DNA of 64,000 nt, taken from NCBI GenBank assembly GCA_016793925.1, contig JAEULH010000100.1, positions 1-64,000 on the forward strand, given 5' to 3'. The first letter of the stretch is position 1, and the number at the start of each line of letters is the position of its first letter. Of the stretch, positions 27,368-56,706 are shown one piece after another. The notes beneath the pieces were generated by a model that worked only from the letters and a program-made list of their open reading frames with translations, had not been told where the DNA came from and searched no databases. Both the position numbers and the translations under genes were made by a program. This DNA comes from Rhodospirillales bacterium. GTDB lineage: Bacteria; Pseudomonadota; Alphaproteobacteria; Rhodospirillales; Defluviicoccaceae.

Positions 27368-27578
27368 CACGATAATCCCGCCATACTCCGGGCCTATCCT
27401 CGGAGTGTGTCGCCGAACCGTTCGGTTCGAGCGCTGCACCCTTGTTGATCAGAAAAAAGTGGCGACATATAACCAGAGGGTACGCATCGAGCAAGGAATC
27501 CAAACCTCCGGTGTGGTTATGGCAGTGCATTTGGGTTCGTTGCTGGTTTCGAACCGCTGCGGCTTTTGAAGATTGAAT

Positions 27579-28514: not shown

Positions 28515-28546
28515 TGCGATCGCGCCGATGTTGAAACGGGACGAGG

Positions 28547-35694: not shown

Positions 35695-36059
35695 TCCGTG
35701 GGGCAAGGCCCAATCCTCCGGATCCGAACGAAGCGCCTCGGCGCGCACGCGCACAAGACGCCTCGTCTGCGTCAAACTTGCACCTTATGTTTGGCAGTAT
35801 CCCGGGTGGTTCTCGAATCAATCTTTGTTACGGTTTGTTACTCGCATTCTCAAACTGAAGAGCTGCAAAGCTCGCGAATGCCTTACTGTCATAGAGCAGG
35901 CACCGAGCTTCAAGCATCAGGACGCTGCCCGAAGGACGAGGCCAGCAATGGACGTCGGCGCCAGCGGACGCCGCGGCGGCTTGACTTCGGCAGTGTCCGG
36001 CGCGCATCTATGAACAACCGGCCGGCGTTCCAACGCCGCGTTTTTAGTGAGACCAGATC
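35695..36059. other. Divergent intergenic region with TGTTAC direct repeats
   Basis: This 365-bp gap separates the ELM1-family gene from the sulfotransferase at 36060. It contains a less GC-rich patch at about 35800-35870 with the direct repeats described separately, and a GAGCT-GCAA-AGCTC hairpin near 35860. No protein gene is convincing. Confidence 0.45.
35823..35841. promoter_or_regulatory. TGTTAC direct-repeat motif (copy 1)
   Basis: CTTTGTTACGGTTTGTTAC contains TGTTAC twice, ten bases apart (35826-35831 and 35836-35841). The same 19-mer with two differences occurs at 50221-50239, also in a long gap upstream of a glycan gene. It looks like a direct-repeat binding site. Confidence 0.4.
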
Positions 36060-37049
36060 ATGCCCATCGCCTACCGCAGCGCCCTGCGCCATGCGTTCAT
36101 GTCGACGTTGTTCTTTCTCCCGCCCGAGCGGAAGGTGCCGCTTGAGCGGCGGCTGCGCGGGCGCGAGGAAGGCCGCAAGCTCGGCCTCGCCGACGTGGTC
36201 ATCGTCTCGTTCGGCAAGAGCGGGCGCACGTGGCTCCGGGTCATGCTGTCGCGCGTCTACCAGGTCAAGCACGGTCTGGCGCAGCGCCACCTCATCGGTT
36301 TCGACAACCTGCACGCCAGGAATCGGCAGATCCCGCGCGTCTTCTTTACCCACGACAACTATCTCAAGGATTTCACCGGTCACGCAGACACCAAGGAGGA
36401 CTACTACGACAAGAAAGTTGTTCTCCTCGTCCGCAGCCCCGCCGACGTCGCCGTTTCGCAATATTTCCAGTGGAAGTACCGGATGCGGCCGACCAAGAAG
36501 GTGATCAACAACTATCCCGACGCGGACGTTTCTTTGTACGATTTTGTCATGCGGCCCAACGCCGGCCTGCCCAAGGTCATCGAGTTCATGAACGGCTGGG
36601 CCCGCGAACTGCCGCGCCTGAAACATCTGCTTGTCGTCCGCTACGAGGACATGCGCGCGGACCCGGGCGAAGTCCTGGGCCGCATCGTTGACTTCATCGG
36701 CACCCCGGCGACGCCGGCCGAGATCGAGGAGGCGGTGCGCTTTGCGTCCGTCGAGAACATGCGCGCGCTTGAACAGAAGCGGGTGTTCTGGCTCAGCGGC
36801 GGTCGGATGGTGGCGAAGGATCGAAAGAACCCGAACACCTTCAAGGTGCGGCGAGCCAAGGTCGGCGGCTATCGCGAGGACTTCAGCGAGGAGCAGACGC
36901 GGAGGATCGACGAGATGATCGCGACCAGCCTCGACCCGGTTTTCGGCTGCGGGCCGGCGGCAGCGTCAGCGGCGGAGCCGGCGCCGGGAGCGTCGCAGGA
37001 ACCGGCGGCGCAGGCGGACGAGGAGGCGTCGACGGCAGCGTCGGCCTGA
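36060..37049 (+). CDS. PAPS-dependent sulfotransferase family protein
   Basis: A 329-aa sulfotransferase. The PAPS loop is VSFGKSGRTWLRVML (GKSGRTW near residues 52-58), the 3'-phosphate-binding region is LLVRSPADVAVSQYFQW, and the C-terminal KVGGYREDFSEEQ is conserved in the family. The last 35 residues are a low-complexity Ala/Glu/Pro tail outside the fold. It is a paralogue of the gene at 23958. The following DPD-motif gene starts 44 bp downstream, probably on the same transcript. Confidence 0.9.
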   Translation: MPIAYRSALRHAFMSTLFFLPPERKVPLERRLRGREEGRKLGLADVVIVSFGKSGRTWLRVMLSRVYQVKHGLAQRHLIGFDNLHARNRQIPRVFFTHDNYLKDFTGHADTKEDYYDKKVVLLVRSPADVAVSQYFQWKYRMRPTKKVINNYPDADVSLYDFVMRPNAGLPKVIEFMNGWARELPRLKHLLVVRYEDMRADPGEVLGRIVDFIGTPATPAEIEEAVRFASVENMRALEQKRVFWLSGGRMVAKDRKNPNTFKVRRAKVGGYREDFSEEQTRRIDEMIATSLDPVFGCGPAAASAAEPAPGASQEPAAQADEEASTAASA

Positions 37050-37093: not shown

Positions 37094-38095
37094 ATGGACA
37101 GTTTCGAGCAGCGAGCAGCGGATATTGGAGCGCACGCGACGGCGGCGGCCGAGCCGGCGGAGGCGGGCGCCGCACCGTCGGCCGTGAAGCCGTGCGTGTT
37201 CATTCATACCAACGCGCTGCAGATGCTGGGCGCGAAAGTCGCGGCGCACGCTCTGGCGCGCAATTCGGCGCACAGCGACGCCTTCGACATCCGCATCATC
37301 CACACCGACGACTATCCGTTCCTGCACGCCCGCGACGGCCAGCAGTTTCTCCGCGACGGGGTCAAGCGGCACTGGCGGATGGACGACCTGCAGTCGTTTA
37401 CGCCGCTGCGTTTCCTGCCGCCGGAGTTGATGGGTTACCAGGGCCGCGCCGTGGTCATCGATCCGGACATCTTCGCCATCGCCGACATCTGGGATCTTCT
37501 CAGCCGCGACATGCAGGGCGCTTCGATCATGTGCCGGATGCGATCCGGGGTGAAGCGGCTGCGCGGCTGTTACGCCAGCAGCGTGATGTTGCTCGATTGC
37601 GCCAAGCTGAAGCACTGGCGTTGCGAGGAACAGTTCAACGAACTGTTCGCCTTCAAGCGCGACTACATGGCCTGGATTTCACTCAAGCTCGAGCCGCAGG
37701 GCAGCATCGCGTTGTTCGAAAACGAGTGGAACGACTTCGACCGGCTGAGCCCGCAGACGAAAATGCTGCACAACACCGGGCGTCTCACCCAGCCCTGGAA
37801 GACCGGTCTGCCGATCGACTTTACGCCGGCCGACACGTTCCCGCTGTTCCCGCCGATCGGCTGGGCGATGCGGTTGCGGCGACGGGCGTTCGGCGATCAC
37901 GCGCTGCTCGGTCGCTACCGCCGTCACCCCGATGGCAATCAGGAGCGGTTGTTCTTCGGCCTGCTCCGCGAGTGCGTCGAGGCGGGGTCGGTCAGCGAGG
38001 ACGAAGTGCGCGAGGAGATGCGCCTCAACCACGTTCGCCGCGACGCCTTCGAGGTTCTCGAACGAAGCTCGCTTCCCCAGCGGTCGGCGGCGTGA
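37094..38095 (+). CDS. Glycosyltransferase-like protein with DPD motif, paralogue
   Basis: A 333-aa paralogue of the gene at 29722. After a 30-residue Ala-rich leader it shares VFIHTNALQMLGAKVAAHAL, LQSFTPLRFLPPELMGY, VVIDPDIFAIADIWDLLSRD, NEWNDFDRLSPQTKMLHNT and DGNQERLFFGLLREC. The DPD motif suggests a metal-dependent GT-A enzyme. It lies between a sulfotransferase and the ceramide synthase candidate, linking the glycan region to the sphingolipid locus. Confidence 0.75.
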   Translation: MDSFEQRAADIGAHATAAAEPAEAGAAPSAVKPCVFIHTNALQMLGAKVAAHALARNSAHSDAFDIRIIHTDDYPFLHARDGQQFLRDGVKRHWRMDDLQSFTPLRFLPPELMGYQGRAVVIDPDIFAIADIWDLLSRDMQGASIMCRMRSGVKRLRGCYASSVMLLDCAKLKHWRCEEQFNELFAFKRDYMAWISLKLEPQGSIALFENEWNDFDRLSPQTKMLHNTGRLTQPWKTGLPIDFTPADTFPLFPPIGWAMRLRRRAFGDHALLGRYRRHPDGNQERLFFGLLRECVEAGSVSEDEVREEMRLNHVRRDAFEVLERSSLPQRSAA

Positions 38096-38140: not shown

Positions 38141-39379
38141 ATGGCCGGTAATGGCGCCCCGGCGAACGAGCCGGCGGCAAGCGTTGCATCCGTGCCCGCG
38201 TCCGCGGCCGGCGAACGCGGCCCGCGCGAGGAGGGGCCGGGAACGAGTGGCCTGAGCGTCGAACCCGTCGTCGGGCGGCGTCAACTGGTCGAGTTTCTCA
38301 CGATGCCGCGGCGCATCTATGCCGGCGATCCGCACTGGGTCGAGCCGCTGCTGTTCGAACGGCTCCAGCACCTCGATCCGCGCAAAAACCCGTTCTTCGC
38401 GCACGCCGAAGTCGCCTACTGGATCGCCCGCCGCGACGGCCGGCCGGTGGGGCGGATCAGCGCCCAGGTCAATCGGGCGCATCTGCGCCGGCACGACGAC
38501 GCGACCGGGCACTTCGGCTTCCTTGAAGCCGAGGACGGCGCCGACATCTTCGCCGCCCTGCTGCGGACGGCGGAAGACTGGCTGCGCGCACGCGGCATGC
38601 GCCGCATCCTCGGCCCCTTCACGCTGTCGATAAACGAGGAAAGCGGACTGCTCGTCGACGGGTTCGACGGGCCTCCGTTCCTCATGATGGGGCACGCCAG
38701 GCCCTACTACGCCGGTCACCTCGAAGCCGCCGGCTATGCCAAGGCGAAGGACCTGATCGCCTACGCCTACGACACGGCGGTGGACCCGGACCCGAAGCTG
38801 ACCGCGCTGGTCGAACGGACCGCGAAAAAGCACGGCATCCGCTTTCGCAATGTCGACATGAAGCGATTCGACGCCGAGGTGCGGACGATCTTCGAGATTT
38901 TCAACGACGCCTGGTCGGACAACTGGGGCTTCGTCCCGTTTTCGGAAGCGGAACTCGAACATGTCGCCGCCTCGCTGAAACCGCTCCTGCGCGTGGACGA
39001 CGTCGCCATCGCCGACATCGACGGCGAGGCCGTTGCCATGGCGGTCAGCATGAGCAATGTCAACGAGGCCATCGCCGATTTCGGCGGCCGGCTGCTGCCG
39101 TTCAATTGGGCGAGGCTGCTCTGGCGGATCAAGGTGCAGGGGACGAAGACGGCGCGCTTGGCGCTGATGGGCGTCCGCCGCCGCTACCACGGCGGTGCGC
39201 TCAGCGCGGCGTTGGCCGCCGGCGTGATCGATCAGATCCGCCTGGCGCATCGACGACGCGGGACGCTGCAGGGCGAGTTGTCGTGGGTCCTGGAAGACAA
39301 CAAACCGACGCGACGAATCATCGAAATGTATGGTGCGAGACCCTATAAAACATACAGGCTCTATGTTAGGGACCTGTAA
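38141..39379 (+). CDS. bcerS: GNAT-type acyltransferase, candidate bacterial ceramide synthase
   Basis: A 412-aa protein with an about 40-residue disordered leader and two acyltransferase-like halves. PVGRISAQVNRAHLRRHDD lies in the first half. The second half has a GNAT-like region with VAIADIDGEAVAMAVSMSN and LSWVLEDNKPTRRIIEMYGARPYKTYRLY. The bacterial ceramide synthase of Caulobacter is a GNAT-superfamily protein encoded beside serine palmitoyltransferase; position and fold make this the counterpart, N-acylating the sphingoid base. The stop overlaps the next start as TAATG. The identification relies on context more than on a motif. Confidence 0.68.
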   Translation: MAGNGAPANEPAASVASVPASAAGERGPREEGPGTSGLSVEPVVGRRQLVEFLTMPRRIYAGDPHWVEPLLFERLQHLDPRKNPFFAHAEVAYWIARRDGRPVGRISAQVNRAHLRRHDDATGHFGFLEAEDGADIFAALLRTAEDWLRARGMRRILGPFTLSINEESGLLVDGFDGPPFLMMGHARPYYAGHLEAAGYAKAKDLIAYAYDTAVDPDPKLTALVERTAKKHGIRFRNVDMKRFDAEVRTIFEIFNDAWSDNWGFVPFSEAELEHVAASLKPLLRVDDVAIADIDGEAVAMAVSMSNVNEAIADFGGRLLPFNWARLLWRIKVQGTKTARLALMGVRRRYHGGALSAALAAGVIDQIRLAHRRRGTLQGELSWVLEDNKPTRRIIEMYGARPYKTYRLYVRDL

Positions 39380-40212
39380 TGAACGCGCCATTGTCGCTCG
39401 ATACGCCGGGGAAGTTCACCGCCCTCGTCCTCGCGGGTCGACGCGGCGGGGAAGACCCGTTGGCCAGCGCCGCCGGCGTCAGTCACAAGTGCCTGATCCC
39501 GATCATGGGCGTGCCGATGCTGACGCGCGTGCTCCGCGCCCTGGCCAACACCAGACAGATCGGTCTTATCGGCGTTTCCATCGACGATCCCGCCGCCGCC
39601 GCCCCGGCGCTTGCGCAACTGAGCGAGGAAGAGGCGGCGCGGATCCGGGTCATCGCCAGCGCGGAGACGCCCAGCCTCAGCGTTGCCGCGGCGATCGACG
39701 ATCTGGATCAGCCGCCGCCGCTGCTGGTAACGACGGCCGATCATCCCCTGCTGACGCCGGACCTCATCGACCTCTTCACCGCCGAGGCGGCGCTGTCCGG
39801 CGCCGATCTGGGCGTTGGGATGGCGCCTGCGGCCGACATGCTTGCGGCCTACCCGGACGCGAGGCGAACCTGGCTGCGGTTTCGCGATGATCGCTACACC
39901 GGCTGCAACCTCTTTGCCTTGCTCACGTTCGAGAGCCGGCGGGTCCTCGAATTCTGGCGGCGGGTGGAGAACGACCGCAAGCGGCCGCTGCGGGTCATCC
40001 GCGCCTTCGGCCTGTTTTCCCTGCTCGCCTACGTGAGCGGCCGCCTCACGCTGGCCCAAGCCATGGAGCGGGCCTCAATCCGGCTCGGAGCCGAGGTTCG
40101 CGCGATCGTGTTGCGCTGGCCGGATGCTGCGGTGGACGTGGATAAGCCGGAAGATCTGGCCCTCGTCGAGCAGATCCTGACGGACAGGCGGATGAAGTCC
40201 GAGCGCACCTGA
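39379..40212 (+). CDS. MobA-like nucleotidyltransferase family protein
   Basis: A 277-aa NTP-transferase-domain protein. FTALVLAGRRGGEDPLA is the nucleotide-binding loop, HKCLIPIMGVPMLTRVL carries the conserved lysine, and LLVTTADHPLLT holds the metal-binding Asp. VDVDKPEDLALVEQIL is a typical C-terminal closure. It should activate a small alcohol or sugar phosphate with NTP; in this locus it may prepare the sphingolipid head group. It overlaps both neighbours (TAATG and TGATG), so it is translationally coupled to the ceramide synthase and phosphoesterase genes. Confidence 0.82.
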   Translation: MNAPLSLDTPGKFTALVLAGRRGGEDPLASAAGVSHKCLIPIMGVPMLTRVLRALANTRQIGLIGVSIDDPAAAAPALAQLSEEEAARIRVIASAETPSLSVAAAIDDLDQPPPLLVTTADHPLLTPDLIDLFTAEAALSGADLGVGMAPAADMLAAYPDARRTWLRFRDDRYTGCNLFALLTFESRRVLEFWRRVENDRKRPLRVIRAFGLFSLLAYVSGRLTLAQAMERASIRLGAEVRAIVLRWPDAAVDVDKPEDLALVEQILTDRRMKSERT

Positions 40213-41180
40213 TGTTCACGCTGGCGCATCTGTCCGATCCGCACGTCCCCTCGCCGCTGCGTGTCGGCGTCTCCGCGCTCGCGACCAAACGGGCCCTCGG
40301 CTACTGGTCGTGGCGCCGCCGCCGCGTCTACATTCACAGCATCGACGTGCTCGAGGCGCTGACGCGGGATCTTGCCGAGACCGTACCGGACCACGTCGCG
40401 GTGACCGGCGACCTCGTCAACATATCGTTGCCGAGCGAATTTGCCGCCGCTGCGCGCTGGCTGGAAACGCTCGGCGGCGGCGAACGGGTTAGCATCGTGC
40501 CCGGCAACCACGACGCCTATGTCGCCGTGCCGCTGGAACAGTCATGGGATTTGTGGCGCGCCTACATGGCGAGCGATGGTCCGGGCGACCCGGCGACGGC
40601 GCCGGCAGCTTCGGGTCCGATCCCGTTCCCCTACGTGCGCCGCCGCGGGCGCATCGCCATCGTCGGCCTGTGCACAGCCGTGCCGACGCCGCCGGGATGG
40701 GCATCAGGTCGGCTCGGACGCGACCAGCTCGAGCGTCTCGGCGGGGTGCTCGCCGCGTTCGGCGACGCCGGGATGTTTCGCGTGGTCCTGCTTCACCATC
40801 CGCCGATCGAGGGCGACAACCCGCTCCGCAAGCGGCTGACGGACGCGGCGGATTTGCAGCGGGTGATCGCCAGGCATGGCGCCGAACTCCTCCTCCATGG
40901 TCACGACCACCGCTGCAGCATTCGCGCCATGGCGGGGCCGGCGGGCGGGGTGCCGGCCGTCGGCGTGCCGTCGGCTTCGGCGTCGGTCGCGAAAACAAAG
41001 CCGATCGGCCAGTACAATCTATACGACATTTCGCCTTCGCCGCGTGGCTGGAGCATCGACCTCAGGGTGCGCCGGTACGATGCGACGCTGGGGCGTTTCC
41101 AGGAGGCCGGCGGCCAGCGGGTGGCGCCGCAACCGGCGGACGGGGCGACGATGGACGCGCGCGTCACGGCGGACGCCTAG
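40212..41180 (+). CDS. Calcineurin-like metallophosphoesterase
   Basis: A 322-aa phosphoesterase with a complete metal centre: HLSDPHV (Asp9, His11), TGDLVN, PGNHDAY, LLHHPPIEG and LLHGHDHR. It probably removes a phosphate from a lipid or head-group intermediate; the substrate is inferred only from the locus. Start overlaps the upstream stop (TGATG). A 128-bp gap separates it from the LptF-like gene. Confidence 0.88.
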   Translation: MFTLAHLSDPHVPSPLRVGVSALATKRALGYWSWRRRRVYIHSIDVLEALTRDLAETVPDHVAVTGDLVNISLPSEFAAAARWLETLGGGERVSIVPGNHDAYVAVPLEQSWDLWRAYMASDGPGDPATAPAASGPIPFPYVRRRGRIAIVGLCTAVPTPPGWASGRLGRDQLERLGGVLAAFGDAGMFRVVLLHHPPIEGDNPLRKRLTDAADLQRVIARHGAELLLHGHDHRCSIRAMAGPAGGVPAVGVPSASASVAKTKPIGQYNLYDISPSPRGWSIDLRVRRYDATLGRFQEAGGQRVAPQPADGATMDARVTADA

Positions 41181-41308
41181 AACCACCTGCGTTCGGACAG
41201 TCATCCGAATGCGAGAAGTCGGTCGGTTACAGGACCGTCGGCCATCGTGACGGTTGCCCCTGCGGGCTGACGCGGGGATGATGGCGGCCAGCAGGTCGAA
41301 CCGGATTC

Positions 41309-42541
41309 ATGACAACCATCGACACCTACATCCTGCGCGCAGTCCTGAGGCCGTTGGCGACGGCGCTGGTTGTCGCCCTCATGGTCTTCATGATCGAGCG
41401 CCTGTTGCACCTGATCGACCTGATTCTCGGCGCCAGCGGCCCGCTGAAGGTCGTGCTCGAGATCATGGCCTACCTCGTGCCCCATTACATGAGTGTCGCC
41501 CTGCCGCTCAGCTTCCTCATCGGCCTTCTGATCGGGTTCAACCATCTCAGCCGCGACGGCGAGCTGGACGCGCTGCAGGCCGCCGGGATCAGCCGGTTCC
41601 GCCAGCTCAGGGCGGCCTTGTTGGCGGCCGGCGTGATGATCGCCATCGCTGCGGTGATTTTCGGCTACCTGAAGCCTTACGGCCGCTACGCGTTCCAGGC
41701 CATCATCTACACCATTACCAATGCCTCGCTTCAGTCGCTGGTGCGCGCCGGAGTGTTCGCGGAACTGGGCGATACGACGCTGCTGGTCCAGGACATCCGC
41801 CCCGACGAGGCCGGCTTCAGCCAGGTTTTCATTGTCCAGGGCGGCGACGAGACCGGTGCCGCGGAGCAGAGTGGGGAGCGAACCGTGATCACCGCGAGTC
41901 GCGGTCGCCTGGCGCAGGGGCCGATCGATCAACCGCCGATTCTCCGGCTGTTTGACGGGATCCGAATGACCCTTCCTGCCCGCAACGCCGTTTCGACCGC
42001 GGGCTCCGACAGCGGTGCCTTCGGCATCGTCCGCTTCGAGGAGCTGCGCACCGGCATCGGCGGCGGCGAGCTGAGCGTGTTTCGTCCGCGCGGCAAGGAC
42101 GAGCGGGAGATGACCATCACCGAACTGTGGCAGCGGCGCGATCATCCGCCGGTCGGGATCCGCGCCTCCGATGTCGTGGCGGAACTGCACGTCCGTATCG
42201 TGCGGACGGTGTCGATCCTGTTTCTGCCGCTGCTTGCCTTCCCCTTGGCCCTGGGGCGGCGGCGCTCGGATCGATCCACCGGGATCGTCGGGGCGCTCCT
42301 CGTGCTGATCGCCTACGACCGCATTCTCGATTTCGGCAAGAACCTCGTCGAAAGCGCGGTCGTCGGTCCGGGCCTCGGGCTGTGGGTGCCGTTCGCCGTC
42401 TTCGCCGGGCTGAGCATGATCCTGTTCTGGCACGTCGCCGCCAGGGTTCCCGCCAGCGGCCGGTTCGTCTTTGCCGGCCTGTTCGCCCGTGCCCTGGCGC
42501 CGGTGCTTCCCTCGGCGGCGCGGCGGCGGCGTCCGTCATGA
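41309..42541 (+). CDS. LptF-like YjgP/YjgQ permease
   Basis: A 410-aa inner-membrane protein of the LptF/LptG family. It has about three N-terminal membrane helices (residues 9-120), a periplasmic beta-jellyroll-like domain (about 130-270) and three C-terminal helices. Family-typical stretches are VALPLSFLIGLLIGFNHLSRDGELDALQAAGIS and RIVRTVSILFLPLLAFPLALG. LptF and LptG normally form the membrane channel of the LPS exporter. Located inside sphingolipid genes, this copy probably moves sphingolipid. Its stop overlaps the LptG-like start as ATGA. Confidence 0.9.
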   Translation: MTTIDTYILRAVLRPLATALVVALMVFMIERLLHLIDLILGASGPLKVVLEIMAYLVPHYMSVALPLSFLIGLLIGFNHLSRDGELDALQAAGISRFRQLRAALLAAGVMIAIAAVIFGYLKPYGRYAFQAIIYTITNASLQSLVRAGVFAELGDTTLLVQDIRPDEAGFSQVFIVQGGDETGAAEQSGERTVITASRGRLAQGPIDQPPILRLFDGIRMTLPARNAVSTAGSDSGAFGIVRFEELRTGIGGGELSVFRPRGKDEREMTITELWQRRDHPPVGIRASDVVAELHVRIVRTVSILFLPLLAFPLALGRRRSDRSTGIVGALLVLIAYDRILDFGKNLVESAVVGPGLGLWVPFAVFAGLSMILFWHVAARVPASGRFVFAGLFARALAPVLPSAARRRRPS

Positions 42542-43608
42542 TCCTGACGCGCTACATCGGCCGCAGGCTGGCGGCGAACGTCGCCATCGTCCTGGTGATC
42601 ATCACGACGCTGTCGCTGACGTTCGAGGTGATGGAAGAAGGCGACAACATTGCGGCACGGAGCAGCAATGCGGTGCCGGCCATCACCCGCTACGTCCTCC
42701 TCAGGCTGCCGGAAGTCGCCTCGGAGCTCCTGCCGTTTGCCGCCCTCATCGGAGCGGTGGTCGCCATCGGTCTCCTCCTGCGCCACAGCGAAATCGTCGC
42801 AATCTGGAACAGTGGGGTTTCCGCTCTCGGCATCATGCGCGCGGTCCTGCCCATCGGCCTCCTCCTGGTCGCGCTCCAGGTCGTGCTGGACGATCAGCTC
42901 GTGCCCTGGACGCGAGCGTCCCTTGAGGAGTGGGGCGTGGGCCGGGCCGCGGAGCGCGAGGGGATGCTCAAGAGCAGTTCGGCGTCCGTCTGGCTGTTGA
43001 CCGATGGCGAGGTTGTTCACATCCCGGCAGCCGCAGCCACCGATGCGCATTTTCAGAACCTCGAAATCTTCAGCCGCGACGACGCAGGCCTGCTGACCGA
43101 CTATATCCACGCCGCCGATGCCCGGAGGGACGGGTCGAAGTGGCTGCTCAGCAATGTCATCCACCGGACGGTCACGCCGCCGTCGATCGAAACGGTCCCC
43201 TACATGGACTGGCAACCGCCCATGGCAGTCGAGCAGATCCCCCTCATCTCCAAGCTGCTGAAGGACCTTCGCCTCGACCAGCTCTGGCAACTCTTCGTCC
43301 ATTCGGGCTACGGCCAGCGCTCGCCGGAGCTGTACCGGACCTGGTTCCATTATCGCATTTCCTCGGCCCTGTCCCCGCTGCTCCTCATCCTGCTGGTGGT
43401 CTCGCTGGCGCAGCGCTTCAAGCGGACGGGCACCTTTCTCCGGCTGATGATCTCCAGCATCGCCATCGGCTTCGCCTTCATGGTCTTCGAGGGCTCAAGT
43501 CTGTCCATCGGCGAAGCGGGGTTGCTGCAACCCCTCATCGCGGCCTGGGGACCGAGCGTCCTGCTCGCCAGCGTCATCGGCGTGCTCGTCTTCGGTCGCA
43601 GCGGCTAG
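42538..43608 (+). CDS. LptG-like YjgP/YjgQ permease
   Basis: A 356-aa partner of the preceding gene. The start at 42538 is fixed by the ATGA overlap; upstream in-frame codons do not resemble the family. Motifs are MILTRYIGRRLAANVAIVLVIITTLSLTFEV, VASELLPFAALIGAVVAIGLLLRHSEIVAI, and a C-terminal membrane triplet ending VIGVLVFGRSG. It has six predicted helices with a central periplasmic domain. Together the two would form a heterodimeric lipid extractor needing an LptB-type ATPase encoded elsewhere. Confidence 0.9.
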   Translation: MILTRYIGRRLAANVAIVLVIITTLSLTFEVMEEGDNIAARSSNAVPAITRYVLLRLPEVASELLPFAALIGAVVAIGLLLRHSEIVAIWNSGVSALGIMRAVLPIGLLLVALQVVLDDQLVPWTRASLEEWGVGRAAEREGMLKSSSASVWLLTDGEVVHIPAAAATDAHFQNLEIFSRDDAGLLTDYIHAADARRDGSKWLLSNVIHRTVTPPSIETVPYMDWQPPMAVEQIPLISKLLKDLRLDQLWQLFVHSGYGQRSPELYRTWFHYRISSALSPLLLILLVVSLAQRFKRTGTFLRLMISSIAIGFAFMVFEGSSLSIGEAGLLQPLIAAWGPSVLLASVIGVLVFGRSG

Positions 43609-43643
43609 GCCATGGCCGCCATCGCCTCCTGCCCGGCCGTCCG

Positions 43644-44612
43644 ATGACGCAACCGCGCATCGGGCTGATCAGCAACGTCTGCAGCGAACGCAACAAGCGC
43701 GGCATGGCCGACCTTGACCGCGCCGTGTCCGCACTTCCCGGGATCCGCCACGAGCGGATCTGTGCCGTCGACGGGCTGGCCGACATCCTCGCCTCCTTCG
43801 CTGCCGACGGCGTCGAGGCGATTGCCGTCAACAGCGGCGACGGCACGATCCAGGCGCTCCTGAGCGTTCTGCTGGAGCAGCGACCGTTCGCCGAGGCGCC
43901 GCCGGTGTGCATTCTCGCCGGCGGCATGACCAACATGACCGGCGCCGACGTCGCCCCCCGCGGCTCGCGCGCCACCGTCCTCCGTCGCCTCGTCGAACTG
44001 GTCGCGGCGGGCGCCGTCAGGGATCAGCTTGTCCACCGCCACATCCTGCGCCTCGACAACATTGCGGGCTGGTCGCCGCAGCGGGCGATGTTCTTCGGCG
44101 CCGCGGGGATCGTCGAGGCGATCCGGTTGTGCAAGGCCGAAGTACATTCGCGCGGGCTGTCGTCGGAGTGGGCGAACGGCGCGACCCTGGCGCGGATGCT
44201 CGGCGGCTGGCTGGTCGCGGGCGAACGCAGTCGGCGGGATCTCGGCCTTGACATGGCAATCGCGCTCGACAACGAAGCGCCCGTCGAAGGTCGCCGCCTG
44301 CTCGTCCTGGCGACGACGCTTGACCGGCTGGTGCTCGGCTCGCGCCCGTTCTGGAACGCGCAAACCGGCCCTCTGCGCTACACCGCCATCGCCTACCCGC
44401 CGCGCCGGCTGCTGCTCAACGCGCCCCGGGTGCTGTTCGGGCGGTCCCGCCGGCGGTTCGCCGACCCCAGTTACGCCAGCCGGGGGGTGAGCCGGTTGAC
44501 GCTGGCGATGGACGGGCAGTTCACCCTCGACGGCCAGTTCTTCACCGCCGAGCGCCACAAACCGCTGATCATGACCGCCGACGAGCGGGTGAGCTTCGTC
44601 AAGTTCCGCTGA
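43644..44612 (+). CDS. DAGK/YegS-type lipid kinase, candidate ceramide kinase
   Basis: A 322-aa protein with a diacylglycerol kinase catalytic-type domain. The nucleotide-binding signature is NSGDGTIQALLS (SGDGT at 64-68, replacing the more usual GGDGT), followed by ILAGGMTNMTGADVA, which matches the second glycine motif of the family. A C-terminal beta-domain ends in MTADERVSFVKFR. In the Caulobacter sphingolipid pathway a kinase of this type phosphorylates ceramide; the same role is inferred here. Its stop overlaps the next start (TGATG). Confidence 0.82.
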   Translation: MTQPRIGLISNVCSERNKRGMADLDRAVSALPGIRHERICAVDGLADILASFAADGVEAIAVNSGDGTIQALLSVLLEQRPFAEAPPVCILAGGMTNMTGADVAPRGSRATVLRRLVELVAAGAVRDQLVHRHILRLDNIAGWSPQRAMFFGAAGIVEAIRLCKAEVHSRGLSSEWANGATLARMLGGWLVAGERSRRDLGLDMAIALDNEAPVEGRRLLVLATTLDRLVLGSRPFWNAQTGPLRYTAIAYPPRRLLLNAPRVLFGRSRRRFADPSYASRGVSRLTLAMDGQFTLDGQFFTAERHKPLIMTADERVSFVKFR

Positions 44613-45562
44613 TGACAGGACGCACCGGCAGCACGAACCAGGCCGTCCTCGAGGTGGTGGCCGCCGACGCCGCCGCCCCCGTGCCGGCGCGGGTCGCGGC
44701 CATCGCCGACGCCGCTCGCGCGCGCCATGGGACGAGCGTTTGCGCCGTGCTCGCCTACGGAAGCGCGCTGCGCGAGCGCGACGACCCGAGCCGGATGGTC
44801 GACCTCTATCTGCTCGTCGACAGCTACCGGGTGGCGCAGGACAAACGGTGGCTGCGCGTCGCCAACAGGATCCTGCCGCCGAACGTCTACTATATCGAGA
44901 TCCCATGGGGCGGGGCAGGGCCCGACGGGAGCGGCGAGGGCGGCGCAAGCAGCAAGGTCCGCAGCAAATACGCCATGGTCAGCCTCGCCCACCTCGAGCG
45001 GCTGGTCGGCCCGGGCACACTGCATCCGTACTTCTGGGCCCGGTTCGCCCAGCCCACCGCGCTCGTCTGGGTTCGCGACGAGGCCACGGCCGAGAGGGTG
45101 CGGCGGGTGCTGGCGCGGGCGGTGCTGACGCTGATCGAGGCGGCGTGGCCGCTGACGACGGCGTCCGACGGCGCCGAAACGCGCTGGGTGCGCGCCTTCG
45201 TCGAGACCTATCGCACGGAGCTTCGCTCAGAGGGTCCCGAGCGCGCCCGCGCGTTGTACCGCGCCCATGCCGGCCGCTACGCGGCGATCGCCGCGGCCGC
45301 CCACGAGCCGGAGGCAGGCAGCCAACACCGGTCAGCGGTCCAAAGGCGCTGGTTCGTTCGCCGCGTCGTCGGCAAGGCTCTGTCTGTGCTGCGCCTGCTG
45401 AAGGCGGCGTTCACCTTCGAGGACGGCGCGACCTACCTCGCGTCGAAGATCGAGAGCCATTCGGGCGTTGCCGTCCGCCTGACCGACTGGCAGCGCCGCC
45501 ACCCGATCCTCGCCGCCCCCGGCCTCGCCTGGCGCCTCTACCGCCAGGGCGCGATCCGGTGA
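44612..45562 (+). CDS. Tam41-like nucleotidyltransferase
   Basis: A 316-aa protein with the pattern of Tam41-type CTP:phosphatidate cytidylyltransferases: AYGSALRERDD (the Y-G-S loop), MVDLYLLVDSYRVAQDKRW (aspartate block), then KYAMVSLAHLERLVG and HPYFWARFAQPTALVW. The C-terminal half is helical. By analogy it may convert a phosphorylated lipid to a CDP-activated one. Next to a ceramide-kinase-like gene, CDP-ceramide formation is the natural guess. It converges on the spt gene with a 27-bp gap. Confidence 0.68.
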   Translation: MTGRTGSTNQAVLEVVAADAAAPVPARVAAIADAARARHGTSVCAVLAYGSALRERDDPSRMVDLYLLVDSYRVAQDKRWLRVANRILPPNVYYIEIPWGGAGPDGSGEGGASSKVRSKYAMVSLAHLERLVGPGTLHPYFWARFAQPTALVWVRDEATAERVRRVLARAVLTLIEAAWPLTTASDGAETRWVRAFVETYRTELRSEGPERARALYRAHAGRYAAIAAAAHEPEAGSQHRSAVQRRWFVRRVVGKALSVLRLLKAAFTFEDGATYLASKIESHSGVAVRLTDWQRRHPILAAPGLAWRLYRQGAIR

Positions 45563-45589
45563 AATCAGTCGCGACGAGGTCGACCCGCC

Positions 45590-46816
45590 CTACAGCCTCG
45601 CCGGGATCCGTGCCCCTGCGGCTCGCTCCAGCGCGGCGAGGTCTTCGGCCAAGGCGCCGAAGCGGGCGATGACCTCGGCGATCTGCTCGGGCGTATGGGC
45701 CGCCGAGACGCTGGCGCGCAGCAGGCAGGCGCCGTTCGGCGTGCCGGGCGGCAGGGCGAGGTTGACGTAGACGCCGCGTTCGAGGAGGCGGTTCCAGGCG
45801 TAGATCGCCGTCTCCTCGTCCTTCATCCGGAGCGCGATCACCGGGCTCATCTCCGCGCACACTTCGAAGCCGGCGGCGACGACGCCGTCGAAGAGCGCCC
45901 GTGCATTCGCCCACAACCGCCGGCGCAGGTCCGGTCGCCGCTCGATCTCGCGCAGCGCGGCAAGAACGGAGGCGACGTTCGACGGCGAGGCCGAGGCGGT
46001 GAACATGTACGGGCGGCTGCAATAGCGCAGGACGTCGAACTTCGGGTGGCTGGAGGCGCCGAAGCCGCCGACGGCGCCGAGGCTCTTGCTGAAGGTGCCG
46101 ACGACGAAGTCGACCTCGTGCTCGATGCCCTGTTCCTCGGCGACGCCGCGGCCATGATCGCCGAGGACGCCGAGCGAATGCGCCTCGTCGACCAGGAGAT
46201 AGGCGCCGTGGCTGCGCTTGACCTCGGCGAACTCTCTGAGCGGCGCCCGGTCGCCGAGCATGCTGTAGATCCCTTCGACGACCACCAGCTTGCAGCGGTC
46301 GTCGCCGCCTAGCCGGGCGAGGCGCTTGTCGAGGTCGGCCGGGTCGTTGTGGCGGAAGCGGACCAGGGTCGCGCCGCTGAGCCGGCAGCCGTCGTAGATG
46401 CTGGCGTGCGAGTCGGCGTCGAGCAGGATGACGTCGTTGGCGCCGGCCAGTCCGGAGAGTATTCCGAGGTTGGCCTGGTAGCCGGTCGGGAAGACCATCG
46501 CCGAGCGCTTGTCCAGGAATGTCGCCAGCGCCCGCTCGAGGGCGACGTGCGTGGCGTAGGTGCCGTTGGCGATGCGCGACCCTGTCGTTCCGGTGCCGTG
46601 GACGCGGATGGCCTCGATTGCGGCCTCCATGCACAGCGGATCGTAGGTCAGGCCAAGGTAGTTGTTGGTTCCGACCAGGATGGTCCGCTTCCCGTCGACC
46701 CGTGCTTCCGTCGCCGAGTACAGCTCCTCCATGCGCACGCCGAAGGGATCCGTTCCGGCCTTCAGAACCTTCTCGTGACGGGCCGCCGGCAGGCTGTACT
46801 TGTCGAAGATGTCCAT
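45590..46816 (-). CDS. spt: Serine palmitoyltransferase
   Basis: PLP-dependent alpha-oxoamine synthase, 408 aa, condensing serine with a fatty acyl thioester to 3-ketosphinganine. VGTNNYLGLTYDP lies near the N-terminus, the substrate-side His138 in LDADSHASIYDG, Asp210 and His213 in LLVDEAHSLGVLG, and the PLP lysine Lys244 in VGTFSKSLGAVGG. Other family members (KbL, BioF, HemA) are similar, but the adjacent ACP, epimerase and acyl-AMP ligase point to the sphingolipid enzyme. It is last in the - strand operon, three bases after the ACP gene. Confidence 0.92.
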   Translation of the reverse strand: MDIFDKYSLPAARHEKVLKAGTDPFGVRMEELYSATEARVDGKRTILVGTNNYLGLTYDPLCMEAAIEAIRVHGTGTTGSRIANGTYATHVALERALATFLDKRSAMVFPTGYQANLGILSGLAGANDVILLDADSHASIYDGCRLSGATLVRFRHNDPADLDKRLARLGGDDRCKLVVVEGIYSMLGDRAPLREFAEVKRSHGAYLLVDEAHSLGVLGDHGRGVAEEQGIEHEVDFVVGTFSKSLGAVGGFGASSHPKFDVLRYCSRPYMFTASASPSNVASVLAALREIERRPDLRRRLWANARALFDGVVAAGFEVCAEMSPVIALRMKDEETAIYAWNRLLERGVYVNLALPPGTPNGACLLRASVSAAHTPEQIAEVIARFGALAEDLAALERAAGARIPARL

Positions 46817-46819
46817 AGC

Positions 46820-47086
46820 TCAGCCGCCTTTCATTCGTTCGTGCACGAGCCGGGCGAGATCCGCAACGGTTTCGACGTCCGATATCAGGTTGATGGGAAT
46901 GTCGATGTCGAACTTGTCTTCGATCTCCATGATCAGGTCCATGACCTCGACCGAGTCGATATTGAGCTCCGAGCTCAGGCTCGTCTCGGCGCCGAGTGCG
47001 ATCTGCTCCTTGTTATAACGCTGAAGCATGTCGCACAGATCGCTGACGATGCTGTCGATCTCCGGCGATTCGACCTCTGGTTCCAT
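46820..47086 (-). CDS. Dedicated acyl carrier protein
   Basis: An acidic 88-aa carrier protein. The phosphopantetheine attachment Ser45 lies in LNIDSVEVMDLIMEIED. The longer frame upstream lacks homology, so ATG at 47086 is the start. It sits three bases before spt and probably delivers the acyl chain, loaded by the acyl-AMP ligase upstream, to serine palmitoyltransferase. Confidence 0.93.
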   Translation of the reverse strand: MEPEVESPEIDSIVSDLCDMLQRYNKEQIALGAETSLSSELNIDSVEVMDLIMEIEDKFDIDIPINLISDVETVADLARLVHERMKGG

Positions 47087-47129
47087 GCTTGCCTCTACCG
47101 TTCTTTTTGGCGACATCCCGCCAGGCGCT

Positions 47130-48170
47130 TCAGAGCCAGCCGTGCCGGCGATACCAGTCGAGTGTGAGCGACGCGCCCTCGACGAAGCCGACGCGCGGCG
47201 TCCAGCCCGCCATCGCATCCACCGGCCGTTCGCGGCAGACCCAATCCGGATACCATAGCTCGCCAAGCTTGCCACGGGAAAGCATCGGCGCGCGACCGCG
47301 CACGGCGGCGATCGATTCCGCCGCCAGCGCGGCGCACCAGACCAGCGGCCGCGGGGCGCGCACGCAGCGGACGGGCCGGCCGACGAGGGGAGCGGCAAGC
47401 GCGGCCAGATCGGCCCAGCCATAGCCTCCCGGGCGAGCGTCGTCCGGCTCGATCACCTCGCCCCGCCAGACGGGCCGGGCGAGCACGCGGCAGAGCAAGC
47501 GGGCAAGATCGTCGACATAAAGCAGTGAGAACCGAGCCTCGGCGCCGCCGGGCGCGACGAGAAGACCGCGCGAGAGTTGTCGGAAAATGGGCAGGGCGCC
47601 CCGGTCGTGCGGGCCATAGACCGCCGGAGGGCGAACGACGCAGACCTCCAGTCCGCTGTCGGCGGCGGCGTCTTCTCCGGCCCGTTTGCTTGCAGCGTAG
47701 GGGGAGGCTGCGGGGGTGCGGGCGGCGAGAGAAGAGACGAGGAGCACCCGCGCCGGCCGCGCCGCTTTGCCGACCGCCGCCAGAAGGCGCTGGGTTCCGG
47801 CGCCGTTGACGCGGCGGTAGTCGTCGTCCCGGCGCGCGGAGACGAGGCCGGCGAGGTGAATGACCGTGCCCACGTCCTCGACCAGCGGTGCAAGGCTCGC
47901 CTCGTCGTCGAGGGATCCTTGAACCGCCTCGACCTCCGGCGGCAGGCGCGAACCGGCGTCGCGGTTCCGGACCAGCGCCCGCGTGCGATGATGCGCGACG
48001 AGCGCGTTGCAGAGCGCCTGGCCGACGAAGCCGGTCGCTCCCGTAACCGCAACGAGCCCTGAGGCCGCGGCTCCCGCGCCCGTCTCTTCGCGCCCCGCGG
48101 CGTCAGCCGGCGGCTGCAATCCGCTGTTCGGCGTCGAAGCCGTATGCGGGGGTCGCGTCGATGCCGACAT
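47130..48170 (-). CDS. cerR: NAD-dependent epimerase/dehydratase family protein, CerR-like
   Basis: Extended short-chain dehydrogenase fold, 346 aa from the ATG chosen. The dinucleotide motif is VAVTGATGFVGQAL, the active-site pair lies in SPYAASKRAGE (Tyr and Lys), and VIHLAGLV and VVRPPAVYGP are typical of the fold. In Caulobacter an epimerase-like protein between the ACP and acyl-ACP ligase genes acts as the ceramide reductase; by position this is its counterpart. The start is uncertain: 48170 overlaps the ligase by 68 bp, and TTG at 48119 would shorten that to 17 bp. Confidence 0.75.
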   Translation of the reverse strand: MSASTRPPHTASTPNSGLQPPADAAGREETGAGAAASGLVAVTGATGFVGQALCNALVAHHRTRALVRNRDAGSRLPPEVEAVQGSLDDEASLAPLVEDVGTVIHLAGLVSARRDDDYRRVNGAGTQRLLAAVGKAARPARVLLVSSLAARTPAASPYAASKRAGEDAAADSGLEVCVVRPPAVYGPHDRGALPIFRQLSRGLLVAPGGAEARFSLLYVDDLARLLCRVLARPVWRGEVIEPDDARPGGYGWADLAALAAPLVGRPVRCVRAPRPLVWCAALAAESIAAVRGRAPMLSRGKLGELWYPDWVCRERPVDAMAGWTPRVGFVEGASLTLDWYRRHGWL

Positions 48171-49893
48171 CGATGGCCCGCAGCCCGTCATTGAGGTAGC
48201 GCGCCTTTGCCGCGGCGCGGCTCAGCTTGCCCGAGGAGGTAAAGATCAGGGTGCGCGCCGGCACCAGCATGACCTCGCAATGCACCCCGGCGGTCCGGTG
48301 AATGATCGCCGAGATGTCCTGGACCAGCGCGCGCTGGCGCGCGGGCTCGGCGAAGTAGCACTCGACGACGATCACCACCCGCTCGTCGCCGTCGTCGTCA
48401 TCGACCGAAAAGGCCGCGACGGAGCCCGTACGCACGTCGGCGAGGCTCTCGACCGCCCATTCCAGATCCTGCGGCCAGATGTTCCGGCCGTTGCAGATGA
48501 TCATATCCTTGCGCCGACCCGTCACGAACAAGGTCCCGCCGACGGCATACCCCATGTCGCCGGTGTCCAGCCAACCGTCGGCCAGCTTCATCTGCCGCGT
48601 CGCCGCCGGGTTGCGGTAGTAGCCTTCCATCAGGCTCGGCCCCTGGATGCAGATGCGGCCGATCGTCCGATCCGGCAGCGTCCGACCGTTATCGTCGCGG
48701 ATTTCCACGGCGTATTCCGGCAGGACCGAGCCGCAGGCGACGAACGACCGGGTCCGCTGCGCCGCACCGTTCGACTTGACCGGTACCGCCCGGCGCGTGA
48801 ACTCGTACTTGTCGCGATCGACACTGTCGACAACCACGCCTTCGCCCAAAGGCGCGAAACTGACCGCGAGCGTCGCCTCGGCGAGGCCGTAGCTCGGCAG
48901 GAACGCCCGGCGATCGAAGCCGTGCGGGCCGAAGGCGGCCGCGAACTGTTCGAGCACGTCCGGGCGGATCATTTCGCCGCCGATGCCCGCAACCCGCCAC
49001 GACGACAGGTCGAGGTTCATTGCGTTGGCCTTGGCCGCGCGGCGCAGGCACAACTCGTAGCCGAAGGTCGGGCTGAACGCGATCGTGCAGCGGCGCTCGG
49101 AAATGAGCTGCAGCCAGGTCAGCGGCCGGACGGCGAAGGTCGAGGTCGCGAGATAGTCGATCGAGACCTGCGCCAGCATCGGTGTGATGCAGAAGCCGAC
49201 CAGCCCCATGTCGTGGTAAAGCGGCAGCCACGACGCCGCCCGATCGCCGGCCCTCAGCCGGAGGCCGTCGCGCCCGATCGCGCGGGCGTTGGTCGTGATC
49301 GCCCGCTGCGACACCATCACGCCCTTGGGGTCCATGGTGCTGCCCGAGGAGTACTGGATGTAGCACGGCTCGTCCTTGTTGAACGGAGCCAGCGCCCCAC
49401 CCGCGGCCGGAAGGGCATCGAAGTCCTCAGGCGTTCCGATCAGGCGGGCGCCGAGGCCGGCAGCCGCCTGCGCCAGCGTCGGCAGCAGTTCGCGCGAAGC
49501 GACCGCCGCCGCCGGCTGCGCCGCCGCCAACATGGCGCGCAAACGGGCGACGTGGGCGTCATGACCGCCGAGGTTGATGCTCAACGGCAGCGGCACCGGG
49601 ATGAGGCCGACGTACTGGCAAGCGTAGAAGAAGATCAGGAAATGCGGGCTCGTCTCGGCGACGATAGCGAACCGGCTGCCCCGCGGCAGGTCGAGCGTCG
49701 ACAGCCGGAGGGCCAAATCGAGGGCCCGCTCGCGGATCTCGCTGTACGGCAGCGACCGCGCCGGCGCGCCACGGCTCGAAAAGAAGTTGCAACCGGTCTC
49801 CCCGCGCGCCGCATAGTCGAGACCTTCCCATATGGTCTCGAACGTGCCGACGCGGAACGGAAGAACCGGGTTGCTCGTCGCCGTAAGCTCCAC
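48103..49893 (-). CDS. Fatty acyl-AMP ligase (acyl-ACP synthetase-like)
   Basis: A 596-aa adenylate-forming enzyme that should activate a fatty acid with ATP and load it on the downstream ACP. The adenylation core includes IQYSSGSTMDPKGVMVS (P-loop-like), WLPLYHDMGLVGFCI and LPSYGLAEATLAVSF. The C-terminal TGRRKDMIICNGRNIWPQDLEWAVE and the lysine of SSGKLSR complete it. The GTG start at 49893 is preferred because a perfect GGAGGT lies seven bases upstream; an ATG at 49950 is an alternative. It is the first gene of the spt operon. Confidence 0.88.
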   Translation of the reverse strand: MELTATSNPVLPFRVGTFETIWEGLDYAARGETGCNFFSSRGAPARSLPYSEIRERALDLALRLSTLDLPRGSRFAIVAETSPHFLIFFYACQYVGLIPVPLPLSINLGGHDAHVARLRAMLAAAQPAAAVASRELLPTLAQAAAGLGARLIGTPEDFDALPAAGGALAPFNKDEPCYIQYSSGSTMDPKGVMVSQRAITTNARAIGRDGLRLRAGDRAASWLPLYHDMGLVGFCITPMLAQVSIDYLATSTFAVRPLTWLQLISERRCTIAFSPTFGYELCLRRAAKANAMNLDLSSWRVAGIGGEMIRPDVLEQFAAAFGPHGFDRRAFLPSYGLAEATLAVSFAPLGEGVVVDSVDRDKYEFTRRAVPVKSNGAAQRTRSFVACGSVLPEYAVEIRDDNGRTLPDRTIGRICIQGPSLMEGYYRNPAATRQMKLADGWLDTGDMGYAVGGTLFVTGRRKDMIICNGRNIWPQDLEWAVESLADVRTGSVAAFSVDDDDGDERVVIVVECYFAEPARQRALVQDISAIIHRTAGVHCEVMLVPARTLIFTSSGKLSRAAAKARYLNDGLRAIDVGIDATPAYGFDAEQRIAAAG

Positions 49894-50519
49894 TGCCTCT
49901 ACCTCCGAGAGATGAATTCTTGATGCTCCGCGATCCCGCGAAGTGCGCACCCCTAATAAACAAAACTCCTAATGTTTTGCTCTGAGCTGCAAGACCTGGT
50001 CAAGCGCGACGTGCACATGCTAGCCATGCCTCGTCCGACCATCGATTCATGCCGGCGACGCCAAATTGATCCAGTTTTGTGCGTCGAATTCCCACCGCGA
50101 TGCTTGAACGGCGAGATCGAAACGTCATGTTCAGACTTGAGCATTGCAGATCTGTCAATCGACAATTAAAATGATTCTAAGTGTAGAATTAGCAGTGATA
50201 ACCGCACGTCACAAGTCACTCTTTGTTACGATCTGTTACGACCGCTCGATGTGCTTTTTTGCGTTTGTGTGGGACCGCCGGAAGTCGGCTTGCGCCGCTG
50301 GTTCTGCGGGGGGAGCGGGGCGACGCGGCGACGGCCGCGTCCAAGCCATCGTGCGCAGGCCTCGTGGCCGGCCTTCACAAAAGCTTGAGGCGGCGCATGG
50401 CGCGCCACTTGCTTATAGTAACGTGCGAATCACGGCGCCGCCCAGACACTGGACCGGGTCGCCCGTATGAGGCCTGTTTGGGAGGCGCGTGGCGACTGCA
50501 GCGACGATAAGGAGGGCTG
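49894..50519. other. Long divergent intergenic region
   Basis: This 626-bp region separates the sphingolipid operon (- strand) from a glycosyltransferase-like gene (+ strand). It is less GC-rich than the flanks, with AT-rich patches at about 49960-49980 and 50150-50200. Copy 2 of the TGTTAC direct-repeat motif lies at 50221-50239. No credible protein gene was found. It probably holds promoters in both directions. Confidence 0.5.
50221..50239. promoter_or_regulatory. TGTTAC direct-repeat motif (copy 2)
   Basis: CTTTGTTACGATCTGTTAC carries TGTTAC at 50224-50229 and 50234-50239, ten bases apart. It matches the copy at 35823-35841 in 17 of 19 positions. The spacing of one helical turn suggests a protein dimer binding on one face. 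Confidence 0.4.
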
Positions 50520-55673: not shown

Positions 55674-55683
55674 CCGCCCGGGG

Positions 55684-56694: not shown

Positions 56695-56706
56695 CGCGAA
56701 TGCCTC

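Follow-up and report, generated by a model that had tools for sequence, protein, structure and literature searches.

The route by which sphingolipids reach the bacterial outer membrane is stated to be unknown in passages of two papers (PMC11324152, PMC11087976), and a locus in a 64,000-nucleotide stretch of DNA from a Rhodospirillales bacterium of the Defluviicoccaceae, related to Defluviicoccus of wastewater (assembly GCA_016793925.1, contig JAEULH010000100.1; hereafter the window) raises the question of whether the Lpt proteins, which export lipopolysaccharide (LPS) elsewhere, could provide that route. An initial annotation of the window had described a complete-looking sphingolipid locus with a dedicated export pair, LptF and LptG. 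The locus itself was confirmed, with its synthesis genes in a Caulobacter-like cluster; the export pair is real as well, but the genome shows no other LptF/LptG pair to which it could be an addition, and none of the lipid A/Kdo genes searched for was detected. Because this sole LptF/LptG pair sits in the sphingolipid locus and LpxC, LpxB and KdtA were not found, what the Lpt trans-envelope bridge of this organism delivers to the outer membrane is probably a phosphorylated sphingolipid instead of LPS.

LptF and LptG form an adjacent F-G pair and scored 221.9 and 184.8 bits, respectively, against PF03739 (cut-off 27.9), and no PF03739 gene other than these two, both in the sphingolipid locus, was detected in the organism's own genome. 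LpxC, LpxB and KdtA were not detected in that genome by searches that were positive in the controls E. coli and Caulobacter. The genes of the Lpt bridge (LptB, LptC, LptA and LptD) are all present; LptB scored 370.5 bits (cut-off 240) and is adjoined by LptC and LptA. LptD is found on a different contig, near genes for cytochrome b, a PQQ dehydrogenase and UvrB, and that contig ends soon after; in the LpxC-bearing sister genome G086, a canonical LptF-LptG pair stands directly before LptD. The genes of the locus and its immediate surroundings are as follows.

36060..37049, + strand: sulfotransferase (PF00685, 96 bits), 44 nt before the next gene and possibly in the same transcription unit; putative lipid link
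37094..38095, + strand: GT8-like glycosyltransferase, without a Pfam match; putative lipid link
38141..39379, + strand: candidate ceramide synthase (CerS) of the GNAT family, likely bCerS/CC_1154 type (PF00583, 29.3 bits)
39379..40212, + strand: MobA/CofC-like nucleotidyltransferase, likely CC_1153 type rather than CpgD (PF12804, 47 bits)
40212..41180, + strand: calcineurin-like phosphoesterase (PF00149, 42 bits)
41309..42541, + strand: LptF, sphingolipid-locus type (PF03739)
42538..43608, + strand: LptG, sphingolipid-locus type (PF03739), with Asp, not Lys/Arg, at the E. coli K40 position
43644..44612, + strand: candidate lipid (ceramide) kinase, CpgB type (PF00781, 27.8 bits; SGDGT motif)
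44612..45562, + strand: Tam41-fold nucleotidyltransferase, predicted CDP-ceramide synthase (CpgC type)
45590..46816, - strand: serine palmitoyltransferase (SPT), spt (NF047599, 639.8 bits, cut-off 500; TFSKSLG motif)
46820..47086, - strand: acyl carrier protein (ACP), AcpR type (PF00550, 40.3 bits; IDSVEV site)
47130..48191, - strand: CerR-like reductase, true start uncertain (PF01370, 92.1 bits)
48103..49950, - strand: fatty acyl-AMP ligase (FAAL), AasR type (NF006624, 761.5 bits, cut-off 600)
52832..54565, + strand: ABC exporter, candidate sphingolipid flippase (PF00664 and PF00005)

The range initially assigned to the locus, 38141..49893, stops short of the ABC exporter. The initial annotation had named placement of spt in the BioF, Kbl or HemA branch as one outcome that would refute a sphingolipid locus; the model scores rule out these identities, since NF047599 gave 639.8 bits versus 328.7 for BioF, 308.6 for Kbl and 223.3 for HemA, and by these scores the product is a bacterial serine palmitoyltransferase. 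Against a second SPT model, NF047603, it scored 482.6, below the cut-off of 670. All five genes of the ceramide set (aasR, cerR, acpR, spt and cerS) are in the locus by family and have relatives in plasmid SPT loci; this assignment was made by family and by the plasmid-locus relatives. Named relatives from the plasmid searches came from Roseomonas mucosa, Diaphorobacter JS3051, Pseudomonas JS425 and Sphingomonas parapaucimobilis. SPT is 51-64% identical to its plasmid and named relatives (60% in Diaphorobacter, across the 137 residues present), and the CerR-like reductase is 38% identical to the CerR-position genes of the Pseudomonas and Sphingomonas loci. CerS matches the corresponding gene of the SPT loci of Diaphorobacter (52%), Roseomonas (48%) and Sphingomonas (40%), and no CerS relative was found in the Pseudomonas plasmid stretch compared. 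Altogether, the enzyme set is that of a known kind of sphingolipid locus.

The enzymes expected to build the headgroup have similar relatives. The kinase is 29-34% identical to kinases from three plasmid loci, and the Tam41-like protein, which does carry the Tam41 fold as initially proposed, is 35-40% identical to three plasmid-locus relatives. The phosphoesterase is 45-46% identical to the LptF-neighbouring phosphoesterase of Roseomonas and Diaphorobacter, while merely 59 residues aligned with its Pseudomonas counterpart. The nucleotidyltransferase, whose sole PDB match is TTHA0179 (2dpw), has its relatives in three plasmid loci among the nucleotidyltransferases other than PCyT (40-49% identity) and had no match to the PCyT of two of these loci. 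In this comparison with the plasmid loci, CpgD was rejected as the less likely identity of the gene, which matches the other plasmid nucleotidyltransferase and not PCyT; CpgD is described as IMPCT-like in a passage of PMC12275187. Furthermore, when the CDP-alcohol phosphotransferase and PCyT proteins of loci L075-L077 were used as queries (E 1e-3), no match to a CDP-alcohol phosphotransferase (CpgA type) or to a PCyT/IMPCT-like cytidylyltransferase (CpgD type) was found in the window or in the own-genome stretches L059 and L102. The locus holds the five-gene ceramide set, but with no CpgA/CpgD-type homologue in the window it is not complete for CPG2. The ABC exporter is likely the flippase of the locus, because its relatives adjoin a kinase or SPT in other sphingolipid loci: it is 38% identical over 562 aligned positions to the kinase-adjacent ABC gene of Diaphorobacter and 38% over 422 aligned positions to the SPT-adjacent ABC gene of Pseudomonas. 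Its score against the MsbA model TIGR02203 was 242 bits, below the cut-off of 602.

The kinase, the Tam41-fold enzyme and the LptF/LptG pair point to a phosphorylated, exported sphingolipid, the initial annotation having suggested an exported anionic one; the enzyme activities, the lipids, the anionic headgroup and the transport step are all predictions. By homology, FAAL would load a fatty acid onto ACP, SPT would condense the ACP-bound fatty acid with serine, and CerS would attach the second acyl chain. The ABC exporter would flip the product and CerR would reduce it, the order of flipping relative to the headgroup steps being only proposed. The kinase would yield ceramide-1-phosphate, from which the Tam41-fold enzyme could form CDP-ceramide with CTP for headgroup attachment, and the nucleotidyltransferase and phosphoesterase may finish the headgroup. 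The finished lipid would be extracted by LptB2FG and passed outward with the help of LptC, LptA and LptD, all of which the organism has kept.

The distribution of these genes was surveyed in 11 genomes of the family and in 150 genomes drawn from the order. LpxC was present in 136 of the 150; the 14 genomes without it comprise eight from the Defluviicoccaceae and six others, five of them less than 90% complete and one 90% complete. Within the family, LpxC was not detected in eight of 11 genomes, LpxB was not detected in the same eight (one of which, SSA4, is a single 4.35 Mb contig), and KdtA was detected neither in these eight nor in G121 (79% complete). All 11 have two PF03739 genes and no more: the sphingolipid-type pair alone in 8/8 genomes without LpxC, and the canonical pair alone in 3/3 with LpxC. 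It should be noted that this correlation may represent a single event, the genomes being related. SPT was found in three of the eight LPS-gene-less genomes, with scores of 639.5 bits in G000, 624.2 in G129 and 454 in G113, where the match lies at the end of a contig, covers 272 of 394 positions and is below the cut-off; in all three, LptF/LptG directly abut the kinase and the Tam41-like gene. The best SPT-model matches in the other eight family genomes were at most 257 bits, and the match in G121, the sole one classified from the LpxC-bearing genomes, is HemA. A scan of genome contigs with the LptF alignment returned seven loci of the family and one distant Alistipes match, with none from Caulobacter.

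Phylogenetic analysis was consistent with this division. In the LptF tree (26 rows), the eight LPS-gene-less rows form one clade (support 100/100), which joins LptF from four of five sphingolipid loci (100/98), and opposite them stands a clade (100/100) of 12 canonical rows from the order, the three LpxC-bearing family members among them. In the LptG tree (23 rows; the canonical LptG of G080, G102 and G148 is left out, as it was not recovered by the seed profile), the LPS-gene-less eight again group together (100/100) and join the sphingolipid-locus rows (93/92). The two trees conflict in the order inside the LPS-gene-less clade. These data place the organism's own LptF/LptG in the sphingolipid-locus branch and not in the canonical branch. 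An LptB tree of 10 genomes, which omits G129 (no LptB above the cut-off), split seven LpxC-lacking from three LpxC-bearing rows (100/98).

Positions named as LPS contacts in a published structure were compared as well. Published cryo-electron microscopy contacts include LptG K34, K62, R133 and R136 and LptF R33 for the 1'-phosphate, LptG K40 and LptF K317 for the 4'-phosphate, and LptF K322, R263 and Q248 and LptG K41 for the inner core, as given in a section of PMC6744409. Counting basic residues in canonical, LPS-gene-less and sphingolipid-locus rows, respectively, LptG K40 is basic (K/R) in 10/10, 0/8 (all Asp) and 0/5; LptG K41 in 10/10, 2/8 and 0/5; LptF K322 in 11/13, 0/8 and 0/5; and LptF R263 in 8/13, 0/8 and 1/5. 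This pattern is compatible with a changed cargo headgroup, short of proof. LptG K34, K62, R133 and R136 were dropped as discriminating contacts, being non-basic in canonical rows except E. coli; R133 is basic in four of the eight LPS-gene-less rows.

For the Defluviicoccus clade as a whole, a broader proposition can be made, on which our judgement is evenly balanced: LPS may have disappeared altogether, with the entire Lpt bridge turned over to another lipid by a swap to sphingolipid-type LptF/LptG, that lipid being a sphingolipid where SPT is present and some other outer-leaflet lipid in the named Defluviicoccus genus, in which neither SPT nor the LPS genes searched for were detected. If the swap took place, Lpt cargo would be set by the permease pair; retention of the bridge in the tested genome while LptF/LptG differ separates the choice of cargo, by LptF/LptG, from the bridge.

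Several observations weigh against a sphingolipid as the cargo that replaced LPS. Long branches join the LptF/LptG of the Pseudomonas JS425 sphingolipid locus to those of E. coli, and the midpoint root of the LptB tree puts the LpxC-bearing rows inside the LpxC-lacking ones; having no outgroup and this nesting, that tree cannot order loss and gain. The NCBI LPS-exporter model TIGR04407 fails to separate the two kinds of LptF, because the organism's own LptF lies just above the cut-off (232.1) and the canonical LptF of G086 just below it (225.3); the LptF tree does tell them apart. A KdsD-like SIS-CBS gene, which may serve another sugar-phosphate route, is kept beside LptC/LptA/LptB (L102:9832-10821 in the organism's own genome, and also L103:4286-5305). 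At the contact positions, LptF R33 is basic in 11/13 canonical, 5/8 LPS-gene-less and 5/5 sphingolipid-locus rows, LptF K317 in 2/13, 6/8 and 2/5, and LptG K34, K62, R133 and R136 are each basic in one of 10 canonical rows (E. coli); moreover, an E. coli LptG K40E/K41E mutant is reported to grow normally, and the positions are called not conserved, in a passage of PMC5548808. The search for LptD covered the organism's own genome, which is 95.8% complete and not closed. Lastly, SPT was not detected in any of the five genomes of genus g2 (G031, G048, G062, G074 and G097, including named Defluviicoccus; for example L051, L106 and L113), all of which are LPS-gene-less, so that a sphingolipid is not necessarily the cargo of such LptF/LptG throughout the clade.

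An SPT-like replacement in g2 was sought and not found: the 12 strong SPT-model matches, with two matches of about 20 bits left out of the classification, resolve to eight HemA above the cut-off and four that are best as BioF, below the cut-off. A BioB-BioF fusion protein is encoded at L113:431-2647 in G097 (Defluviicoccus SSA4). LpxC, LpxB, KdtA and SPT are thus all undetected in this genus, yet the sphingolipid-type pair is kept, which is the strongest reason to retain the explanation that LptF/LptG carry a non-sphingolipid, perhaps glycosylated or sulfated, outer-leaflet lipid of the whole LPS-gene-less clade, the sphingolipid genes being neighbours gained or kept in some members. Consistent with it, three of the five g2 genomes keep the order ELM1-sulfotransferase-glycosyltransferase-phosphoesterase-LptF-LptG, with a sulfotransferase 66-72% identical to that of the window and a phosphoesterase before LptF that is 51% identical, and neither CerS, kinase, Tam41-like gene nor SPT was found in the 20 kb examined around their LptF/LptG. 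However, in G074 and G062 LptF-LptG are the sole matches to window genes within 20 kb, the glycosyltransferase is widespread (5723 relatives among 7997 candidates scored) and so marks no special lipid, the LptF groups with that of SPT-bearing loci from four other bacteria, and the pair abuts the kinase and Tam41-like gene in G000, G129 and G113. A non-sphingolipid cargo throughout the clade is accordingly considered unlikely.

Two further explanations retain LPS or something like it. The organism could resemble Caulobacter, with the genes of a normal LPS machine hidden in the gaps of an assembly of 123 contigs and the pair described here as a dedicated, second one; the published description of LptF2/LptG2 as second versions (PMC11324152, in its account of the cluster) agrees with this, as does the LpxC-bearing G080, which has four PF03739 genes, one pair of them within the order FAAL-CerR-ACP-SPT-LptF-LptG-desaturase-CerS. 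Against it, neither a canonical pair nor any of three separate LPS genes was detected, and eight genomes, including the single-contig one, jointly lack LpxC, LpxB and canonical LptF/LptG, which makes this arrangement very improbable. It is likewise very improbable that LptF/LptG carry an unrecognised lipid A-like molecule made by enzymes outside the LpxC, LpxB and KdtA families. The retained LptD, LptB, LptC, LptA and KdsD-like gene, the failure of the NCBI LptF model to tell the two kinds of LptF apart, and an LpxH-like phosphoesterase in the window, though far below LpxH cut-offs, would suit such a molecule; the sphingolipid-locus type of LptF/LptG and the lack of basic residues at some LPS-contact positions speak against it. 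Export of a phosphorylated sphingolipid over the Lpt bridge remains the favoured reading for the organism studied, and the composition of the outer leaflet becomes a question of its own in the Defluviicoccus genus, where neither SPT nor the LPS genes tested were detected.

Other genes lie around the locus. The LpxH-like phosphoesterase is encoded at 12601-13458 (- strand) and scored 47.9 bits against NF003743 (cut-off 134); its counterpart on the Roseomonas mucosa plasmid is 49% identical and lies about 5 kb from the LptF/LptG pair of that plasmid. Two putative ELM1/GtrOC1-type glycosyltransferases are found at 34480-35775 (- strand) and 60484-61950 (+ strand), and ELM1-type genes are also close to the Roseomonas and Pseudomonas sphingolipid loci. 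Five family-2 glycosyltransferases, possibly surface glycan genes, flank the locus at 27573-29563 (+ strand) and 54714-57672 (- strand). The GT8-like glycosyltransferase has a 71% identical relative in Oceanibacterium hippocampi named 'Glycosyl transferase family 8'; together with the sulfotransferase it was considered as a marker of a special sulfoglycolipid, and this was dropped because the glycosyltransferase is so widespread.

Compared with the canonical LptB2FG LPS exporter, the system described here has the same LptF/LptG family and the same LptB, LptC, LptA and LptD in its genome; however, its LptF/LptG belong to another branch, are separate from LptD, and have no basic residue at LptG K40 or LptF K322 and mostly none at LptG K41. 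Sphingomonas, a sphingolipid maker, is described in a passage of PMC10964400 as naturally without lipid A, and its species S. parapaucimobilis has SPT and LptF/LptG some 2.4 kb apart, a parallel that favours the sphingolipid reading; unlike the locus here, the 21-kb Sphingomonas stretch has no annotated kinase or Tam41-like gene. Of the nine Kdo2-lipid A genes, Nitrosomonas europaea is reported to have lpxK alone (in a passage of PMC3087551), and good orthologs of at least 13 of 17 Caulobacter cluster genes are reported for N. eutropha (in a passage of PMC11324152). Among the papers listed from the open-licence PMC literature, no report was found of Defluviicoccus without LPS, or of sphingolipid export by Lpt proteins beyond the hypothesis in PMC11324152. 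The plasmid loci of Roseomonas mucosa, Diaphorobacter JS3051 and Pseudomonas JS425 each have SPT, ACP, kinase, Tam41-like gene, nucleotidyltransferase and LptF/LptG, with CerS in the Roseomonas and Diaphorobacter stretches and FAAL in those of Diaphorobacter and Pseudomonas; a CDP-alcohol phosphotransferase is present in 3/3 and a PCyT in 2/3, whereas the window has neither. The clusters of L076 (Diaphorobacter pDCB2) and L077 (Pseudomonas pPNP1), with sphingolipid genes and LptF/LptG, are on IncP replicons, one of them typed as conjugative. The sphingolipid/LptFG system may move between bacteria via plasmids.

The closest comparison is with the Caulobacter CPG/CPG2 cluster, CC_1168-CC_1152, for which PMC11324152, in its description of the genes, lists aasR, cerR, acpR, spt, cerS, a ceramide kinase, a CDP-diacylglycerol-synthase-like gene, a CofC-like nucleotidyltransferase, a phosphoesterase, second versions of LptC, LptF and LptG, and a possible flippase. 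The same families are found here, including the kinase, the CDP-diacylglycerol-synthase-like and CofC-like genes, the phosphoesterase, LptF/LptG and the candidate flippase; the window differs in being without a CpgA-type CDP-alcohol phosphotransferase or a CpgD-type cytidylyltransferase, and a second LptC was not recognised in the locus, although no search aimed at LptC was made. By the same account, transport was not studied by its authors, and export by LptF2/LptG2 is a hypothesis. Caulobacter has LPS in addition to the pair called 'second versions', whereas the pair described here is the sole one and LpxC, LpxB and KdtA were not found beside it; with no pair but the sphingolipid-type one and no LPS genes found, this clade makes the Caulobacter export hypothesis directly testable.

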